DNA of 57,198 bases, taken from contig NZ_WSZK01000035.1 of assembly GCF_009791395.1 (NCBI RefSeq), positions 1-57,198 of the forward strand. Reading direction: 5' to 3'. Below the pieces are notes generated by a model. That model was not told the origin of the DNA. It was given only the letters and a program-made list of their open reading frames with translations, and did no database searches. A program made the position numbers and the translations under genes. Each line of letters starts with the position of its first letter. Position 1 is the stretch's first letter. Positions 5,060 through 13,732 of the stretch are shown one piece after another. The DNA is from Halomarina oriensis. GTDB taxonomy: Archaea; Halobacteriota; Halobacteria; Halobacteriales; Haloarculaceae.

Positions 5060-5986
5060 GTGAAAGGACGCTTGATGACGAGGCGGCGGTTGCTGATTCA
5101 GAGCGTCGCAGCCGCCGGCACATTCGGTGCCGGCCGGGCCGCGACGGCTGCGGCCGGCAGTGACGACGAGCGACGGGAGGTGCGTGTCACCGGGGCCATC
5201 TCCGACGACGAGGTCTGTCGACTGCCCCGCTCTGTCACGTCGTCGCTGGGAGTCGTCGCCGGTCAGCAGGTCCGCCTCCGCCACGAGGACGGGCCGGCGG
5301 TGTTCACCGTCGTCCCGACCGACGAGGCGGTGGGAGCGGTGGGCACCGGTGGCCGCGACCGACTCGGCGCGACTGGTGACGCGTTCGACGTCGAGGTGAG
5401 CACACGAGTCGTCCACCCGACCAGAGACGAGGCGACGGCGGCCGACACCGGCGGGTTCGTCGAGCGACTCGTCGACGCCGACGACGAACGCCTGGTCGTG
5501 CTCGCTCCACACGGCGGCTACATCGAGTACGGGACCGACGAACAGGCCACCCACGTCGGCGAACGACTCGACGTGCCGGTGTGGTACTGCGCCGGGTGGT
5601 GGCCCGGCGGCGGTGCGTTCGACCGGTGGCACGTCGGGTCGACGGACATCCACCCGGCGTCGTTCCCCCGACTCGCCGAGGTGTCGAACCGGTCGTTCGA
5701 CGCGGTGGTCGGCTTCCACGGGTGGGGTGAGGACCACGTCGCCGTCGGCGGAGCCGCCCCGCTCGACCGGAGGCGGACGGTCCGTGACACCATCGCGGCG
5801 GCCGTCGGAGACGCGTTCGACGTACGACTGGCAAGCGACGAGAGCCGCGACGGCGACCACCCGGACAACGTCGTCAACTGGCTGAGTGCCTCCGGTCGGG
5901 ACGGGGTGCAGATAGAACAGCCGTGGGACGCGCGCCGCGAGTACGGCCGGACCATCGCCGACGCCGTGGCCGACGTGTTCGAGTGA
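5060..5986 (+). CDS. Secreted poly-gamma-glutamate hydrolase family protein (copy 1)
   Basis: 308 aa from GTG 5060 (a TTAAGT box about 28 nt upstream supports it); ATG 5075 is the alternative. Residues 8-12 RRRLL begin a Tat-type signal followed by an Ala/Gly-rich stretch, so export is expected. The core has LAPHGGYIEYGTDEQA (149-162), WHVGSTDIHPASFPRL (190-205) and VVGFHGW (216-222). These correspond to the zinc-site blocks of the phage/Bacillus PghP PGA-hydrolase family. Residues about 40-125 form a separate N-terminal module shared with copy 2. It sits beside pgsB and pgsC homologues, which supports a role in trimming or releasing PGA. Activity itself is inferred. Confidence 0.85.
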   Translation: MKGRLMTRRRLLIQSVAAAGTFGAGRAATAAAGSDDERREVRVTGAISDDEVCRLPRSVTSSLGVVAGQQVRLRHEDGPAVFTVVPTDEAVGAVGTGGRDRLGATGDAFDVEVSTRVVHPTRDEATAADTGGFVERLVDADDERLVVLAPHGGYIEYGTDEQATHVGERLDVPVWYCAGWWPGGGAFDRWHVGSTDIHPASFPRLAEVSNRSFDAVVGFHGWGEDHVAVGGAAPLDRRRTVRDTIAAAVGDAFDVRLASDESRDGDHPDNVVNWLSASGRDGVQIEQPWDARREYGRTIADAVADVFE

Positions 5987-6011: not shown

Positions 6012-6380
6012 GTGACCGGCGTCTCGGGGTGCAACGCGTCGAACACCTCGGGGACGACCACGACGAACGGCGAATCGACGGCGAGGAGTGAGACGACCAG
6101 CGAACCCGATGGGGCGTCGTCGCGTATCGACGGCCAGGTGTTCGACCTGTCGAACGAAGCCGTCCCCGGGGCGACGGTCGAGGCTATCGTCCCGAGCACT
6201 GGAGTCGTCGACCGAACGACCGCCGACGAAGCGGACCGGTTCGAACTCGCCACGACCGACGAAGCTGCGGAAGGTGGTCGGGAGTACGACCACATCCGGC
6301 TCGGTGGCCCCGCGACGGTGGAGTTCGAGACGAACGAGGCGTCGCCGGACGGCGTCGTGTGGTCCAGAACAGGGACCTGA
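6012..6380 (+). CDS. Short lipoprotein-like protein with carboxypeptidase-regulatory-like domain
   Basis: 122 aa from GTG 6012. The N-terminus reads VTGVSGCNASNTSG, which looks like the end of a lipoprotein signal peptide with its lipobox Cys. The in-frame codons just upstream (ALAVGV) are also hydrophobic but offer no start codon. After a Thr/Ser linker, SRIDGQVFDLSNEAVPGATVEA and a D-R-F-E-L-A-T turn resemble the beta-sandwich carboxypeptidase regulatory domain (G-x-V-x-D-x-x-x-x-P-x-P-G-A-x-V). The domain seems short at its C-end. It may be a decayed lipoprotein gene or a real small surface protein, cotranscribed with the PGA hydrolase 25 nt upstream. Confidence 0.5.
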   Translation: MTGVSGCNASNTSGTTTTNGESTARSETTSEPDGASSRIDGQVFDLSNEAVPGATVEAIVPSTGVVDRTTADEADRFELATTDEAAEGGREYDHIRLGGPATVEFETNEASPDGVVWSRTGT

Positions 6381-6387
6381 AGCCGAA

Positions 6388-7551
6388 TCAGGTCCGACGG
6401 TTCAGCGCGTCGGCGACGGCGTCGGCGACGGCGTCGCCGTGCTCGTCGCGGACGGACTTCGGCTGGCCGACCCAGATGCCGTCGTCGTCGGTGAGTTCGT
6501 TGATGAGGACGTCCTCGTCGGTCGCCGCGTACCGTCCCTCCGCGAGGACGGGCGTGGGCATGCTGTCGGGCAGGACGCCAGCGATGGCGTCACGGACCGC
6601 CTCACGCGTCTCCTCGGAGGCGTTGCCGCCGACACGGACGCGAGCGGTGCAGGTGCCGTGGAAGCTCACGCCGAACCGGAACGTGTGGTCGGTGATGGAC
6701 GCGAGTTTCGGGAACGACGCGGGCGAGAGCTGCGTCGAGGGGACGTGCCAGCGGACGAACGCGCCGCCGCCGTCGCGGAAGCCGTACGTACGCCAGGTGG
6801 TCACGGGCGGGTCGTAGCTGGCGGCGAAGCGCTCGGCCTGTTCCGCGGTGCCGGCTTCGACGTCACCGCCGTGTGGTGCGAGGGCGACGACCAGCGAGCG
6901 CTCGTCGTAGTCGAGGACCTCGACGAGTTCGTCGTTCTCGCGGGCCTCCTCGACGGTCATGTCGGGAGCCGGGAGGACGGGGTCGACGACGGCGTCGAAC
7001 GACTCGTCGGCGAGCGAGCAGCCGCCCTCGTAGGTGGGACAGCCCTGCTGTTTGTCGCCGGTGTTCTCCCAGTTCAGTTCGTCGAGCGCGAGGCGGCAGC
7101 GAGCGCGACGGTCGATGCGGACGGTGTCGTCGGCACGCTCCTGTCGCGCTCCGGCGACGGTGTAGGCGGCGTACTCGTCGTCGGTGCGACGGACGCGGAC
7201 CTGCTGACCGGGGGCGACACCGAGCGCGTCGAGCAACGCGGGGTCGGCCGTGAGTTCGGTGAACGACTCCGCGAGCGAGTCGGGGCCGCTACCGCCGGGG
7301 AAGTCGACGGTGACCGAGGCGGTGTCGCGGCCGTCGGCCTCGGTGTCCTGCTGGACGACGGTCGAGAGCGCCGACGAACGGGCGTTCGCCTCGACGGCAC
7401 CGACACCGAGTCCGAGGAGCGCCGGTGAGGCGAGTCCCGCGGCGAGGAACGCACGCCGCGAGGTACCGTCCGTGGCCTCGGTGCTGTCGGTCGAGTCGTC
7501 CGCTGAGTGGTCGGAAGTCGGTTCGTCGGGTCGATGTGTATCGTCTGTCAT
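6388..7551 (-). CDS. Secreted poly-gamma-glutamate hydrolase family protein (copy 2)
   Basis: 387 aa. After an acidic Ser/Thr/Asp leader, TSRRAFLAAGLASPALLGLG is a clear Tat signal. The family blocks match copy 1: ALAPHGGDVEAGTAEQAE, RWHVPSTQLSPASFPKLA and GVSFHGTC. The N-terminal module (DALGVAPGQQVRVRRTDDEYAAYTV) is also shared. Compared with copy 1 there is an insertion with two Cys (residues around CRLALDELNWENTGDKQQGCPTYEGGC, quoted only as a Cys-bearing stretch), possibly a disulfide loop. It is the last gene of the pgsC-pgsB-hydrolase unit and ends 8 nt from the convergent lipoprotein-like ORF. Confidence 0.87.
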   Translation of the reverse strand: MTDDTHRPDEPTSDHSADDSTDSTEATDGTSRRAFLAAGLASPALLGLGVGAVEANARSSALSTVVQQDTEADGRDTASVTVDFPGGSGPDSLAESFTELTADPALLDALGVAPGQQVRVRRTDDEYAAYTVAGARQERADDTVRIDRRARCRLALDELNWENTGDKQQGCPTYEGGCSLADESFDAVVDPVLPAPDMTVEEARENDELVEVLDYDERSLVVALAPHGGDVEAGTAEQAERFAASYDPPVTTWRTYGFRDGGGAFVRWHVPSTQLSPASFPKLASITDHTFRFGVSFHGTCTARVRVGGNASEETREAVRDAIAGVLPDSMPTPVLAEGRYAATDEDVLINELTDDDGIWVGQPKSVRDEHGDAVADAVADALNRRT

Positions 7552-7689: not shown

Positions 7690-8880
7690 TCACCGGGTCG
7701 CCTCCACGTTCGACGACGAGGGCTTCGTCGACTCGGCGGCGGCCGCCCGGCGCTCGACTTCGGCCTCCATGCCGCGCATGAAGTCGGCGACGGTGTTGCC
7801 GACGAGGAAGACCGGCCACCCGTCGTCGAGCGCGGCGTCGAGGACCGTCGCCGGGTCGTCGCCGTCGTGGCGGACCACCGGGAACGGCGCACGCCGAGCG
7901 AACCGAGCGGTGTCGTCGCCCGCGACCCGGACCTGCTCGAAGACGCCCTGTTCGTAGCACTCGGAGAGGTACTCCAGGAACGCCGCGGTCCGCCCACGAC
8001 GGTCGCCGCGGATGTAGAACAGGGGCTGTATCGTCCCCGGTCGGTCCGCGGCGAGGGCACGGCGAACGACCTCCGTACTCTCGGTGTCGTTGACCGACGC
8101 GGCGTTGAAGACGTGACCGCCCTCGATAGCCCGCCACTCGACCCGCATCTCGTCGAGGTAGCCTCCGAGTAGCTCCCGCGACAGCGGCTCTTCGCCGACG
8201 GCGTCGAGCACTTCGTTCAGCGCGTAGATGGACTCCGCACCCGGGACGTTGGCGTGCTCGTCGGGAACCGAGACGTGCGAGACGGTCGCACCACGTCGGT
8301 CGAGTTCCGTCTCCAGACACTCCCGCAGGGCCGGCGACTGCTCGCCGTTGACGACGTGCGTGCCGGCCGGGATGGCTCGGGCGAGCGCCCGAGCGATGGC
8401 GAGACGGTCGCCGCCGAGGGTGTCGAGGTGGTCGCGGCGAACGTTCGTCAACACGACCACGTCCGGGTCGACGAACTGCTCGGCGACCATCCGGGTCGTG
8501 TAGTCGGAGATCGCCTGGTTCTCGACGACGAGGACGTCGTCGGGTGGGTTCTCGCGGAGCTCTCGCTCGTTCTCGTACAGCGTGACCCGTTCGCCGCGAG
8601 TGATCGGTCGGCGCTCGTCGCCCCGGAGCATCGCCGGGCGATTGCCGGTTATCTTCGCACCGGTGTCGTAGCCGCGGGCGTCGAACACGTCGTGGAGCCG
8701 TTCGGTCGTCCCCGACTTGCCGCGCGTGCCGGAGACGACGATACGCGTGTCGATGTCGGCGAGGCGTTCGCGGTGGTCGGGACCCCGAGTCACGAACCTC
8801 CGGACCGCGTCGAGGCGCTCGTGTGCCCCCGACAGGAATGGGAGGCGTTCGCCGGCCGCCGAGAAGACCGTCGACAGCAT
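7690..8880 (-). CDS. pgsB: Poly-gamma-glutamate synthase ligase subunit PgsB/CapB-like
   Basis: 396 aa, equal to the usual length of CapB (about 393-400). It is a Mur-ligase-type amide ligase that activates the growing gamma-carboxyl with ATP and adds glutamate. Seen: P-loop VSGTRGKSGTTERL (residues 49-62; CapB-type GTRGK), TGNRPAMLRGDE, VVENQAISDY and VVLTNVRRDHLDTLG (142-156), matching the CapB NVR-x-DH block with the metal-binding His. Its ATG shares bases with the stop of the pgsC-like gene (TGATG), so the two are translationally coupled. Membrane attachment is probably through PgsC. No PgsA gene lies nearby. Confidence 0.9.
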   Translation of the reverse strand: MLSTVFSAAGERLPFLSGAHERLDAVRRFVTRGPDHRERLADIDTRIVVSGTRGKSGTTERLHDVFDARGYDTGAKITGNRPAMLRGDERRPITRGERVTLYENERELRENPPDDVLVVENQAISDYTTRMVAEQFVDPDVVVLTNVRRDHLDTLGGDRLAIARALARAIPAGTHVVNGEQSPALRECLETELDRRGATVSHVSVPDEHANVPGAESIYALNEVLDAVGEEPLSRELLGGYLDEMRVEWRAIEGGHVFNAASVNDTESTEVVRRALAADRPGTIQPLFYIRGDRRGRTAAFLEYLSECYEQGVFEQVRVAGDDTARFARRAPFPVVRHDGDDPATVLDAALDDGWPVFLVGNTVADFMRGMEAEVERRAAAAESTKPSSSNVEATR

Positions 8881-10055
8881 CAGGCGACCCCCTCCGCGGT
8901 GAGTCGGCGGGTGAGCCGACGCCGCTCGCGCTCGAACCGGGTCACGCGGACACCGGCGAGCGCACAGACCGCGACGCCGAGCAGCGACAGGGCGACGGTG
9001 ACGACGAGGCTCTCGGCGAGCATCGTCCCGGAGAGCGGCCGGGCGACCGGCAGCGCGACGGCGAGCGAGACGACGAACAGCGCCGCGGAGAGCAGCGCTC
9101 CCGTCGACCGTTCGGCGGGCGCGAGTCGGTGGAAGTTGTACGCGCCGATGCCGGCGAGGATCGAGAGGAACAGCAGGACGAACCCGCTCACGCCCGGCAG
9201 GAACGCGGCCGCCGGAACCGCCAGCACCACCCCGGCGAGGACGGCGACGGAGAGCAACACCCGACCGTACAGCAGCGTTCGCCGGTTGATGGTCCGGACG
9301 ACGAGGAACACGGCGACGGTACCGACGAGGTACAGCGGGACGACGCTCGGTGACTGGAGCGCGAACAGCGCGAGCAGCGGGGCCGCGATGAGCCCGTTGA
9401 GTCGGACGCCGTAGCGACCGTAGACGGCCTCGGAGACCGCACCGCCGGCGAGGAGGAGCGCGACGGAGGCTCCGAACCCGACCCCCGTCGCGGTGAGTGC
9501 GGGGTCGGCCAGTGCTGCGCCGCGAAGCGTCGCCACGTCGGCCGACGACGCGAACAGCACGGTCGGCGTCAGCCGACCGAGCGTCGCGGCGACCGTCGGG
9601 TTGAGCACGGTCGCTCCGAGGACGAACAGACCGACGAACGCCGAGAGGCTCGCACCGACGTCTTCGATTCGCCGGTCGCGGTCGAGTCGGTGGTAGTTGT
9701 ACGCGGCGACACCGGGGAGAACGCTCCCGAGGAAGACGAGGTGTGCGTACACCGGGTCCGTCCCCGTCAGCACGGAGAGAGCGGCGAGGCCGACGATAGG
9801 GACGACCGCACCGATGGCGATGGCCGAGAGCAACAGGACGCGCCCGTAGAGCATCGTCCGACGTTTCAGGAGCGCCAGTCCGAGATACGCGGCAGCCGTG
9901 CTGACGACCGCCAGCGGGAACGCGTAGAGGTCGTACAGTGAGTAGACCGCGAACAGCGGGACGACGAGCACTCCCGACATCCGTAGCCCACGCGCCTGTG
10001 TGACCACGATACCCATCAGGAGACCGAGCGCGACGAGGAGGGCGGCGACTATCAC
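8880..10055 (-). CDS. pgsC: PgsC/CapC-type membrane protein, tandemly duplicated
   Basis: From the chosen GTG at 10053-10055, 391 aa that are nearly all hydrophobic helices. A classical CapC is about 150 aa; here two units follow each other. RRTMLYGRVLLLS (65-77) recurs as RRTLLYGRVLLSV (258-270), and GVAAYNYHRLDRD (115-127) recurs as GIGAYNFHRLAPA (302-314). The strand GVLVVPLFAVYSL (28-40) recurs as GLIAAPLLALFAL (221-233). These are CapC hallmarks (G-x-(I/V)-VPG-type loop and LYGRR-type motif). The start is uncertain: ATG 10115 or GTG-like positions up to 10232 are open, but the added residues are Arg/Pro-rich. A basic C-tail ends the protein. Confidence 0.85.
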   Translation of the reverse strand: MIVAALLVALGLLMGIVVTQARGLRMSGVLVVPLFAVYSLYDLYAFPLAVVSTAAAYLGLALLKRRTMLYGRVLLLSAIAIGAVVPIVGLAALSVLTGTDPVYAHLVFLGSVLPGVAAYNYHRLDRDRRIEDVGASLSAFVGLFVLGATVLNPTVAATLGRLTPTVLFASSADVATLRGAALADPALTATGVGFGASVALLLAGGAVSEAVYGRYGVRLNGLIAAPLLALFALQSPSVVPLYLVGTVAVFLVVRTINRRTLLYGRVLLSVAVLAGVVLAVPAAAFLPGVSGFVLLFLSILAGIGAYNFHRLAPAERSTGALLSAALFVVSLAVALPVARPLSGTMLAESLVVTVALSLLGVAVCALAGVRVTRFERERRRLTRRLTAEGVA

Positions 10056-10435: not shown

Positions 10436-13400
10436 ATGGCACTCGGGGAGCGCTCGGGGGACCCGGCCGAGGACCCACGAGCGACGTACGACTACGAGAT
10501 GGGCGACGTGGCCCGTCCGGGACTCGTCGAGGACCTCGAATCGCTCGTCGAGGGTGACGTCCGGTTCGACGACTACTCGCGGGCGCTCTACGCGACGGAC
10601 GCCAGCGCCTACGAGCAGGTGCCCATCGGCGTCGTCTTCCCGACCAGCACCGAGGACGTGGCGGCGACGATGCGCTACTGCGCGAACCGGAAGATTCCGG
10701 TCTTGCCGCGTGGCGGCGGGACGAGTCTCGCCGGGCAGACGGTCAACCGCGCCGTCGTCCTCGACTTCACGCGACACATGGACGCGGTGACGGACGTCAG
10801 TCCCGGTCGGCGCAGAGCGACCGCGCAGGCCGGCGCGATTCTCGGCGAACTCAATCGAGAACTGGCCGACCACGACCTGAAGTTCGCGCCGGACCCAGCG
10901 TGGGCCGACAAGTCCGCCATCGGCGGTGCGGTTGGGAACAACTCGACGGGCGCACACTCGCTGGTCTACGGCAAGACCGACGCCTACGTCGAGTCCTGTG
11001 AGGTGGTGCTCGCCGACGGGCACGTGACCCGATTCGGCGAGATATCGGTCGAGGAGTTGCGCGAGAAGGCCGACCCCGACAGCGCAGCGTGGGGCGACGG
11101 TCCCGACAGTCCGCTCCTGCCGCGCATCTACGCCGAAGTGGTTCGGATTCTGGACGAGGAGGCCGACGAGATAGAGCGACGATACCCCGACCTCAAACGC
11201 AACGTCTCGGGGTACAACCTCGACGTGTTGGTCGAGGAGGCCCACGAGACGGACAGCATCAACCTCGCTCGACTCATGGCCGGGAGCGAGGGGACGCTGG
11301 CCATCGTCACGGAGGTGACCGTCTCGCTCGAACTCGTCCCCGAAACGAAGGCCGTCGCGTTGCTCACCTACGACTCGCTGCTGGACGCGCTGTCGGACGT
11401 CGCGGCCATCCTCGAACACGACCCGGCGGCCGTCGAGGTGATGGACGACGTGTTGCTCGACCTGGCCCGCGAGACGCCGGAGTTCGCGGACGTCGTCGGG
11501 CTGCTCCCCGACGGGACGGACTCGGTGTTGCTCGTCGAGTTCTACGCCGACGGCGACGCCGAGGGCGAGCAGTTCGTCGCGGACCTCGTCGCCGACCGGG
11601 TGGGCGACGTGGCGACGGTCACGGACCCGAGCGAGGGCGCGACCGAGACGACGGGAGGCGAGCGGTACGCCAGCGCGGCGCTGGAGGCTCACGACGCCGA
11701 GCAGCGAGCCCAGTTCTGGAAGATGCGCAAGTCGGGGCTTCCCATCCTGCTCTCGCGGACGAGCGACGAGAAACACGCCTCGTTCATCGAGGACACCGCG
11801 ATTCCGGCGGAGAACCTCCCCGCCTACGTCGAGGAGTTCGAGGAAGTGCTGGAGGCCGAGGGGACGTTCGCCTCCTACTACGCCCACGCCGGCCCCGGCG
11901 TCCTCCACATCCGGCCGCTGGTCAACACGAAGACCGAACGCGGCCTCGAATCGTTCTACGCCATCTCCGACGCCGTCACGGAGCTCGTCGTCAAGTACGG
12001 CGGGTCGGTGTCGGGCGAACACGGCGACGGACGCGCTCGCACCCAGTGGAACCGCCGACTCTACGGCGACCGACTCTGGCGGGCGTTCGGCGAACTGAAG
12101 ACGGCGTTCGACCCCGAGTGGCTGCTCAATCCGGGCACCGTCTGTGGCCGGGACGACGCGGATGCGTCGTCGGCTCACGGCTCCGCCGTGGAGAGCCACG
12201 ACATGCGCCGCCACCTCCGGTTCGACCCGGAGTACGTCTACGAGGCCGGCTTCGAGCCGACGCTGAACTGGGACGAGGAGAACGGGATGCAGGGGATGGT
12301 CGAACTCTGTCACGGCTGTGGGGGCTGTCGGGGCTCTCAGGAGACGACGGGCGGCGTGATGTGTCCGACCTACCGCGCGATGGACGAGGAGGCGCTGTCG
12401 ACCCGTGGGCGGGCGAACGCGCTCCGGAGCGCGATGAGCGGTACGCTCCCGGAGGACCCCGCCAGCGACGAGTTCGTCGAGGAGGTGATGGACCTCTGTA
12501 TCGGCTGCAAGGGCTGTGCGAAAGACTGCCCGAGCGGCGTCGACATGGCGAAGCTCAAAGCCGAGGTGGAGTACGAGTACCGCCAGCGCAACGGGAGCAG
12601 TCTCCGGGACCGCCTGTTCGCCAACGTCGACGGCGTCAACCGACTCGGGTCGGCGTTCGCGCCGCTGGCGAACGCGCTGACGCGTCTGCCGGGGGTGAGC
12701 CGACTCCAGGAGTCGCTGTTCGGCATCGCCAGCGAGCGTGACCTCCCGGGGTTCGCCACGGAGTCGTTCGAGGACTGGTGTTCGAAACGGACCCCGACCG
12801 TCACGCCCGAAGCGGCCCACCGGAAGGTGCTGCTGTTCCCCGACACCTACACGAACTACAACCGGCCGGCCGCCGGGAAAGCCGCCGTCGAGGTGCTCGA
12901 AGCGGCCGGCGTCTACGTGCAGGTACCCGACGTCGGCCCGAGCGGACGGGCCGCCCACTCGAAGGGGATGCTGGGCCTCGCCCGCGAACGGGCACAGTCG
13001 GTCGTCGACGACCTCGCGCCACGAATCCGGGAGGGCTGGGACGTCGTCGTCCTCGAACCGTCGGACGCGGTGATGCTCCAGCACGACTACCTCGACCTGC
13101 TGAGCGGGCCGGACGTCGAACACCTCGCGGAGAACGTCTACGGCTTCTCGGAGTACGTCGACGTCCACCGTCTCGGCGAACGCCTCCCCCTGTCGGGGAC
13201 GGGCCGACTGACCTACCACGGCCACTGTCACCAGAAGTCGACGCTGAAAGACCACCACGCCGTCGGCGTCCTGCGACGGGCGGGCTACGAGGTCGACCCG
13301 CTCGACTCCGGGTGCTGTGGGATGGCCGGCAGTTTCGGCTACGAGGCCGAACACTACTCGATGAGTCGCGCCATCGGCGACGTCCTCGTCGAACAGGTCG

Positions 13401-13732
13401 AGGGCGCGGACGGTGACCGGACCGTCACACCGGGCGCGTCCTGTCGGTCACAACTGGAGTCGTTCGAGGATCACCCCGAACACCCAGCCGAACTGCTCCG
13501 GGAGGCGATGGCGATGTGGGAACGCGGCCAGGACACGCCGCGGCCGGAGGGCGTGGACGTGGTCCGAACGCGCGAGTCGTCGAGCGGCGGACCCGTCGAC
13601 GAGGATACCGGACCCGAACCGCCACGGCAAGCAGGGGAGTGGGTCGACGTGATTCGGACCGACGACGGCGACACCGACCGGGAGCGTCGACCGACGACCG
13701 ACGACCCGGCGGAACGGACCGACGACGAGTGA
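10436..13732 (+). CDS. GlcD-GlcF fusion: FAD-linked and Fe-S dehydrogenase (D-lactate/glycolate type)
   Basis: 1098 aa, a fusion typical of haloarchaea. Residues about 55-230 are the FAD_binding_4 domain (LPRGGGTSLAGQTVN, GAVGNNSTGAHS). Residues about 270-560 are the FAD-oxidase C domain (GTLAIVTEVTV, GEHGDGRARTQW). Two cysteine clusters for 4Fe-4S centres follow: CHGCGGC with a later C-P (about 623) and CIGCKGCAKDCP (about 687). The C-terminal part is the CCG domain (HCHQKSTL about 928, GCCGMAGSFGYE about 959). It should oxidise a 2-hydroxyacid at the membrane or in the cytosol and pass electrons to the respiratory chain; the exact substrate is not determined. The last about 80 residues are an acidic tail with a repeated VDV(V/I)RT motif. 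Confidence 0.92.
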   Translation: MALGERSGDPAEDPRATYDYEMGDVARPGLVEDLESLVEGDVRFDDYSRALYATDASAYEQVPIGVVFPTSTEDVAATMRYCANRKIPVLPRGGGTSLAGQTVNRAVVLDFTRHMDAVTDVSPGRRRATAQAGAILGELNRELADHDLKFAPDPAWADKSAIGGAVGNNSTGAHSLVYGKTDAYVESCEVVLADGHVTRFGEISVEELREKADPDSAAWGDGPDSPLLPRIYAEVVRILDEEADEIERRYPDLKRNVSGYNLDVLVEEAHETDSINLARLMAGSEGTLAIVTEVTVSLELVPETKAVALLTYDSLLDALSDVAAILEHDPAAVEVMDDVLLDLARETPEFADVVGLLPDGTDSVLLVEFYADGDAEGEQFVADLVADRVGDVATVTDPSEGATETTGGERYASAALEAHDAEQRAQFWKMRKSGLPILLSRTSDEKHASFIEDTAIPAENLPAYVEEFEEVLEAEGTFASYYAHAGPGVLHIRPLVNTKTERGLESFYAISDAVTELVVKYGGSVSGEHGDGRARTQWNRRLYGDRLWRAFGELKTAFDPEWLLNPGTVCGRDDADASSAHGSAVESHDMRRHLRFDPEYVYEAGFEPTLNWDEENGMQGMVELCHGCGGCRGSQETTGGVMCPTYRAMDEEALSTRGRANALRSAMSGTLPEDPASDEFVEEVMDLCIGCKGCAKDCPSGVDMAKLKAEVEYEYRQRNGSSLRDRLFANVDGVNRLGSAFAPLANALTRLPGVSRLQESLFGIASERDLPGFATESFEDWCSKRTPTVTPEAAHRKVLLFPDTYTNYNRPAAGKAAVEVLEAAGVYVQVPDVGPSGRAAHSKGMLGLARERAQSVVDDLAPRIREGWDVVVLEPSDAVMLQHDYLDLLSGPDVEHLAENVYGFSEYVDVHRLGERLPLSGTGRLTYHGHCHQKSTLKDHHAVGVLRRAGYEVDPLDSGCCGMAGSFGYEAEHYSMSRAIGDVLVEQVEGADGDRTVTPGASCRSQLESFEDHPEHPAELLREAMAMWERGQDTPRPEGVDVVRTRESSSGGPVDEDTGPEPPRQAGEWVDVIRTDDGDTDRERRPTTDDPAERTDDE

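Follow-up and report, generated by a model that had tools for sequence, protein, structure and literature searches.

Results

A tandem duplication within PgsC
The PgsC/CapC protein of Halomarina oriensis is a genuine internal duplication of CapC. One polypeptide holds two homologous units in tandem, and the predicted order of helices is the same in each; this form occurs generally, its C-terminal copy has one origin, and its gene is partnered with pgsB. We analyzed a stretch of 57,198 nucleotides (contig NZ_WSZK01000035.1; here called the window), which encodes a PgsC of 391 amino acids (Table 1). The Pfam profile of CapC, PF14102, matches this protein twice, with 108.3 bits in total, and each unit scored separately exceeds the gathering cut-off of 27 bits. 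A first-pass annotation had proposed the duplication from three pairs of repeated motifs, and all three are indeed present in the translation: RRTMLYGRVLL (residues 65 to 75) and RRTLLYGRVLL (258 to 268) at an offset of 193, GVAAYNYHRL (115 to 124) and GIGAYNFHRL (302 to 311) at an offset of 187, and GVLVVPLFAV (28 to 37) and GLIAAPLLAL (221 to 230), again at 193. When aligned, the two halves gave a BLOSUM62 local score of 206, whereas the maximum was 100 in 2,000 plain shuffles and 111 in 2,000 shuffles that kept the hydrophobic/polar pattern. BLASTP of half against half found 57 of 146 residues identical (E = 9e-14). Comparison of an N-half profile with a C-half profile, each built from 17 relatives, agreed at a probability of 99.8 (E = 2.2e-28), and we regard the proposed duplication as confirmed. 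We found nothing in favor of a chance similarity between hydrophobic helices or of an assembly artifact, and consider both extremely improbable: they are refuted by the pattern-keeping shuffles, by the profile comparison, and by 42 of 45 independent named loci in which a single full-length frame encodes both units.

The GTG start lies at an alignment column where the relatives start as well. Since the score against the PgsC equivalog TIGR04011, 28.5 bits over two stretches, does not reach the cut-off of 96.45, we assign the protein to the Pfam family and not to the equivalog. It also departs from the single unit of about 150 aa that characterizes CapC.

Table 1. Features of the pgsC region; positions refer to the window, except for the last row (locus L113 of the same genome)
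Feature	Position	Strand	Remarks
pgsC (capC)	8880..10055	-	391 aa, GTG start, two tandem CapC units
N-terminal CapC unit	9672..10028	-	PF14102, 75.9 bits; unit about residues 1-150; modeled in the whole protein and alone
Inter-unit linker	9477..9605	-	residues 151-193; from model and conservation; probably extracellular
C-terminal CapC unit	9111..9440	-	PF14102, 53.7 bits; unit about residues 194-337; from model
Additional long C-terminal helix	8886..9008	-	residues 350-390; no counterpart in the N unit; from model
pgsB (capB), Mur-ligase-like	7690..8880	-	PF08245, 31.8 bits; GTRGKS motif
Gamma-PGA hydrolase family protein (PF05908)	6388..7551	-	Tat-like start; downstream of pgsB
Second gamma-PGA hydrolase family protein (PF05908)	5060..5986	+	Tat-like start; convergent
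Second pgsC-pgsB locus	L113 3907-5154, 5295-6464, 6461-8128	-, +, +	

Distribution of the two-unit form
The two-unit PgsC is the standard haloarchaeal form. Within the window's class, a profile search gave a PF14102 match in 79 of the 391 genomes, from 32 of 86 genera. Among 30 open reading frames taken from other sites in this search (L001, L004-L032), 29 have both units in a single frame; in the sole exception, L012, a frame change interrupts the gene. A survey of haloarchaeal PgsC lengths, which the first-pass annotation had called for, gave the same picture in named genomes, where the protein is full length and two-unit in 42 of 45 loci (380 to 405 aa, median 388). Of the other three loci, L077 ends at a contig edge with parts of both units visible, L055 stops within the second unit, and L067 has the units as two genes. 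The genome of the window itself holds a second two-unit PgsC of 389 aa (Table 1). Its PgsB-like neighbor, a protein of 555 aa, carries the motif GIRGKS and matches no Pfam family at E <= 0.01; the gene adjoins what we take, by eye, to be a RuBisCO-like gene. We also noticed that this protein has an N-terminal extension resembling the one in its Methanohalophilus counterpart (531 aa).

In a phylum-wide draw, 30 of 392 genomes matched PF14102, 12 of them outside haloarchaea. Eight of these 12 have an intact two-unit gene, two have a single-unit gene (both from family f30), and two, from one genus, have a broken one. Methanohalophilus sp. RSK (L054) is among the named two-unit carriers. The single-unit CapCs, from methanogens, are 156 and 159 aa long, each with a CapB-like gene next to it; one lies near a gene that is presumably methyl-coenzyme M reductase alpha, as judged by eye. 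The two broken copies from one methanogen genus differ, one (L105/L055) having a frame break and the other (L104) a stop codon. At a further locus, L107, pgsC lies in overlapping frames (6031-6495 and 6306-7118), the N unit being shortened to profile positions 2-94 while the C unit is complete, which we read as decay or a reduced form. Searches of plasmids returned haloarchaea, weak Streptomyces matches, one chance match in Leisingera, and nothing else.

Predicted structure of the two halves
An AlphaFold2 model of the whole PgsC, built from 39 sequences, had a mean pLDDT of 90.7 and a pTM of 0.89. Helices of the N half span residues 2-22, 31-41, 45-67, 72-97, 104-110 with 112-123, 126-150, and 153-159; those of the C half follow in matching order at 194-215, 224-234, 238-260, 264-285, 291-310, 313-337, and 345-348, so that the order of the first half is repeated 187 to 193 residues later. 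Modeling the N unit by itself, from an alignment that included both halves, gave the same helices (pLDDT 91.6). A prediction of non-equivalent halves would have spoken against the duplication; instead, the model supports the halves being structurally equivalent in helix order.

At the residue level, 152 positions could be paired between the halves; 12 of them reach 85% conservation or more in the N and C halves alike, always with an identical residue, and they include the TLxYGR and GxAYNxH motifs. This conservation suggests that both halves are under selection, and the basic and polar pairs R25/R218, R72/R265, Y119/Y306, H122/H309, and R129/R316 are likely a shared core. Another 23 positions are conserved in the N half only, among them P47, P86, P114, and D132, and 11 in the C half only, among them E209, Y263, and L267. 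The halves are thus no longer equal, and the symmetry is only approximate.

The equivalent loops 63-73 and 252-266 both hold clusters of basic residues, whereas the linker averages 3.3 D/E versus 1.5 K/R in 39 relatives and is thus acidic. This pattern suggests an even number of membrane crossings per unit, which would place the linker outside and make the halves parallel. No solved structure matched by sequence at E <= 1 for the whole PgsC or at E <= 5 for the N-unit profile, and Foldseek gave no match at E <= 0.001 for either the whole model or the unit model. The best VIA Z scores were 4.5 for the whole protein and 6.4 for the unit, possibly reflecting a common helical arrangement. The unit matched MtrC (8q3v) at Z 6.4 (rmsd 5.9, 147 aligned residues) and, tied with it and equally weak, 7w6k, an anion channel of the ALMT type with a six-helix fold, at Z 6.3 (rmsd 5.1, 132 aligned). 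Since such scores fit a common helical arrangement, we claim no fold relationship from them. Plant anion channels of the ALMT type are dimers.

Partner genes and CapA
A PgsB-type ligase gene lies beside pgsC in the window, its ATG overlapping the pgsC stop codon (TGATG). The encoded protein scored 91.3 bits against TIGR04012, under the cut-off of 222.7; its GTRGKS motif is like the ATP motif GIRGKS described for Bacillus PgsB (PMC6029982). pgsB is directly downstream of pgsC in 44 of the 45 named loci, and the remaining one is at a contig edge. With neighbor profiles built from proteins of the window, L054, L067, L113, and the plasmids, we found a PGA hydrolase-like gene near 10 of these loci and a CapA-like gene near 4. 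The two PF05908 hydrolases of the window share, by eye, a similar stretch in their N-terminal regions, and the one at 6388-7551 has a weak CDC48_N-like match, below cut-off (E = 0.14), in an extra N-terminal region. Divergent from pgsC, at 10436-13732 (+), is a gene for a 1,098-aa protein in which an FAD-linked oxidase is joined with 4Fe-4S and CCG domains.

A profile search for CapA (PF09587) found no match in the window's own genome, which in this respect does not qualify as having a bacterial CapBCA system. Among 80 other PF14102-positive genomes, PF09587 is absent in 35 and present in 45, and in at least 12 it lies within about 5 kb of pgsC (coordinates read by eye). Its presence in 45 of these genomes refutes the idea that doubling is a general replacement for CapA. 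On plasmids, CapA-family genes occur in different orders, capA-pgsC-pgsB on pHLAC01 (L130 3893-8744) and pgsC-pgsB-capA on pHH126 (L131 5944-10428), and they are long, 2,058 and 2,115 bp, respectively.

We then considered a known producer. Natrialba aegyptiaca is reported to make L-PGA of more than 1,000 kDa (PMC3815933; PMC4187202). The name is a synonym of N. aegyptia, and the link from producer to genome is by species and genome content. The genome of N. aegyptia DSM 13077 has two PgsCs, both two-unit, and no single-unit type, and the PF09587 search found no CapA match in it; one locus (L063) has the order pgsC-pgsB-hydrolase, as in the window. These data suggest that CapA is dispensable in at least some two-unit systems. 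In B. subtilis, PgsBC without PgsA is reported to yield 26 g/L PGA with a D/L ratio of 5/95, versus 75/25 with PgsA (PMC6029982). The all-L archaeal polymer has been ascribed to missing D-glutamate suppliers (PMC4187202), and this would explain it equally well as the absence of CapA.

Origin of the duplication
We rooted a quick tree of 150 units on the two single units; all of its 75 N copies and 73 C copies group apart (SH-aLRT support of 88 and 99, respectively). The set left out double-covered loci, domain pieces of fewer than 110 profile positions, identical copies, and the broken L012 and L107. A careful tree of 46 units has the C copies in one group (100/100) at the end of a long branch, 2.03 changes per column; the outgroup attaches inside the N copies, which are not a clade. 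Because every intact protein has both halves, we read this as one duplication with a long C branch and an unreliable root. The C-terminal copy is of single origin. Methanogen copies are nested in haloarchaeal groups in the large tree, both for N (94) and for C (98), which points to gene transfer; salt-living methanogens probably acquired the two-unit PgsC in this way.

A locus from a Natrialbaceae metagenome-assembled genome (L067) has the halves as separate genes, whose products are 232 and 199 aa long; the two genes overlap at TAATG, pgsB comes next, and the products match PF14102 at 68.3 and 40.8 bits. In the quick tree, though not in the careful subset, they fall within fused proteins with support of 98 (N) and 90 (C), so the locus looks like a secondary split. 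We also considered gene conversion between halves and rejected it, the mean N-C identity being 0.262 within proteins and 0.257 between them. There is some similarity between the halves at the DNA level, over 37 nt.

Discussion

We favor the view that the two-unit PgsC is a covalent, parallel pair of CapC units, duplicated and fused once, which probably replaces two separate subunits and whose halves have become partly specialized. The CapC unit would have been duplicated and fused in or before the haloarchaeal radiation. In an archaeal poly-gamma-glutamate synthase, the product would serve as the membrane subunit, its linker lying outside and bridging the end of unit 1 and the start of unit 2, both of which would be on that side as well. 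PgsB, a cytosolic ATP-dependent ligase, would add gamma-glutamyl residues at the inner face, while the two-unit PgsC would hold PgsB and pass the growing chain outward, one polypeptide doing the job of two separate CapC subunits elsewhere. Half-specific residues would be later specialization. This mechanism is plausible, and the role of PgsC in PGA synthesis and export is putative, drawn from the genome content of N. aegyptia and the B. subtilis literature (PMC6029982). The first-pass annotation had suggested that the fused pair builds the internal symmetry that two subunits give elsewhere and could affect how a PGA channel forms, an interpretation that our results partly support. The single-unit CapC of methanogens and the natural two-gene version fit such an equivalence; the exact symmetry did not hold, as the halves have diverged.

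This divergence can also be read as an asymmetric division of labor, in which the N unit is the true CapC working with PgsB and the C unit, with the extra helix, is specialized for gating, anchoring, or the hydrolase, making the protein akin to a heterodimer and not to a doubled homodimer. The N unit does score better on PF14102 (75.9 versus 53.7 bits), likewise in most rows of the class search, and both the excess of N-only conserved positions (23 versus 11) and the long branch to the C copies point the same way. However, the 12 core positions identical in both halves, TLxYGR and GxAYNxH among them, argue against it, and we consider it possible but doubtful. An inverted pair strikes us as very unlikely. 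The second helix of each unit (31-41 and 224-234) is just 11 residues long; should it fail to span the membrane, each unit would have five crossings and the halves would be antiparallel, like fused dual-topology transporters. Five helices were indeed predicted by SOSUI for B. subtilis PgsC (PMC6029982), but these omit a segment modeled here as helix (104-123). Inversion would also put the equivalent loops on opposite faces, yet both are basic and the linker is acidic.

The product could be something other than free PGA, such as short gamma-glutamyl tails on another acceptor, with the gene names over-annotated. Both PgsB and PgsC fall under their NCBIfam equivalog cut-offs, the genome is without CapA, and its second locus has the 555-aa PgsB-like protein beside a RuBisCO-like gene. 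But the window has PGA hydrolase genes next to the operon, as do 10 of the 45 loci, and a proven producer, N. aegyptia, has the same pgsC-pgsB-hydrolase order and no other type of PgsC, which makes another product unlikely. More speculatively, and with only a slim chance of being right, the covalent CapC pair together with PgsB may form a complete, CapA-free L-PGA synthase and exporter, the polyanion leaving by a basic path between specialized halves. Such a path would be reminiscent of the dimeric plant anion channels, a weak fold lead. If this were true, loss of CapA and an all-L polymer would go together in archaea, as with removal of PgsA in B. subtilis.

The passages of the PgsC literature that we consulted do not give the stoichiometry of PgsC in the synthase. 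With a natural covalent pair, a single unit, and a split pair in one domain of life, it becomes testable by genetics. The two-unit form may explain why, according to a survey of 2015, PgsC went undetected in the known archaeal producers of PGA (PMC4497714). It also points to a way of making pure L-PGA, which is of interest to industry, without CapA. The names capC and capB were already in use for genes of Haloquadratum walsbyi in 2006 (PMC1544339). Doubling is mentioned neither in the passages on H. walsbyi in that paper nor in the annotation lines of pHLAC01 and pHH126, and it appeared in no title or abstract opening in the literature on PgsC/CapC in haloarchaea, archaea, and Natrialba or on its duplication (subscription papers lay outside this scope). 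Annotation of haloarchaeal PgsC/CapC is known, and the doubled form appears to be new, with an earlier mention possible.

One of the nearest known counterparts is PgsC/CapC of Bacillus (PF14102, TIGR04011), a membrane protein needed for PGA, with which the protein described here shares family motifs and a PgsB partner. Bacillus PgsC is a single unit, whose predicted helices in B. subtilis end at residue 147 (PMC6029982). In contrast, the window's PgsC has two fused units and an extra C-terminal helix, and its genome is without the usual partner CapA. Halorubrum lacusprofundi pHLAC01 and Haloarcula hispanica pHH126 carry annotated PgsC/CapC genes of 1,185 to 1,218 bp, adjoining a Mur-ligase-like or hypothetical gene in the position of pgsB; unlike the window's genome, these operons also hold a CapA-family gene. 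The CapC of the two methanogens (L102, L103) is likewise archaeal, belongs to PF14102, and has a CapB-like gene downstream, but it consists of one unit.
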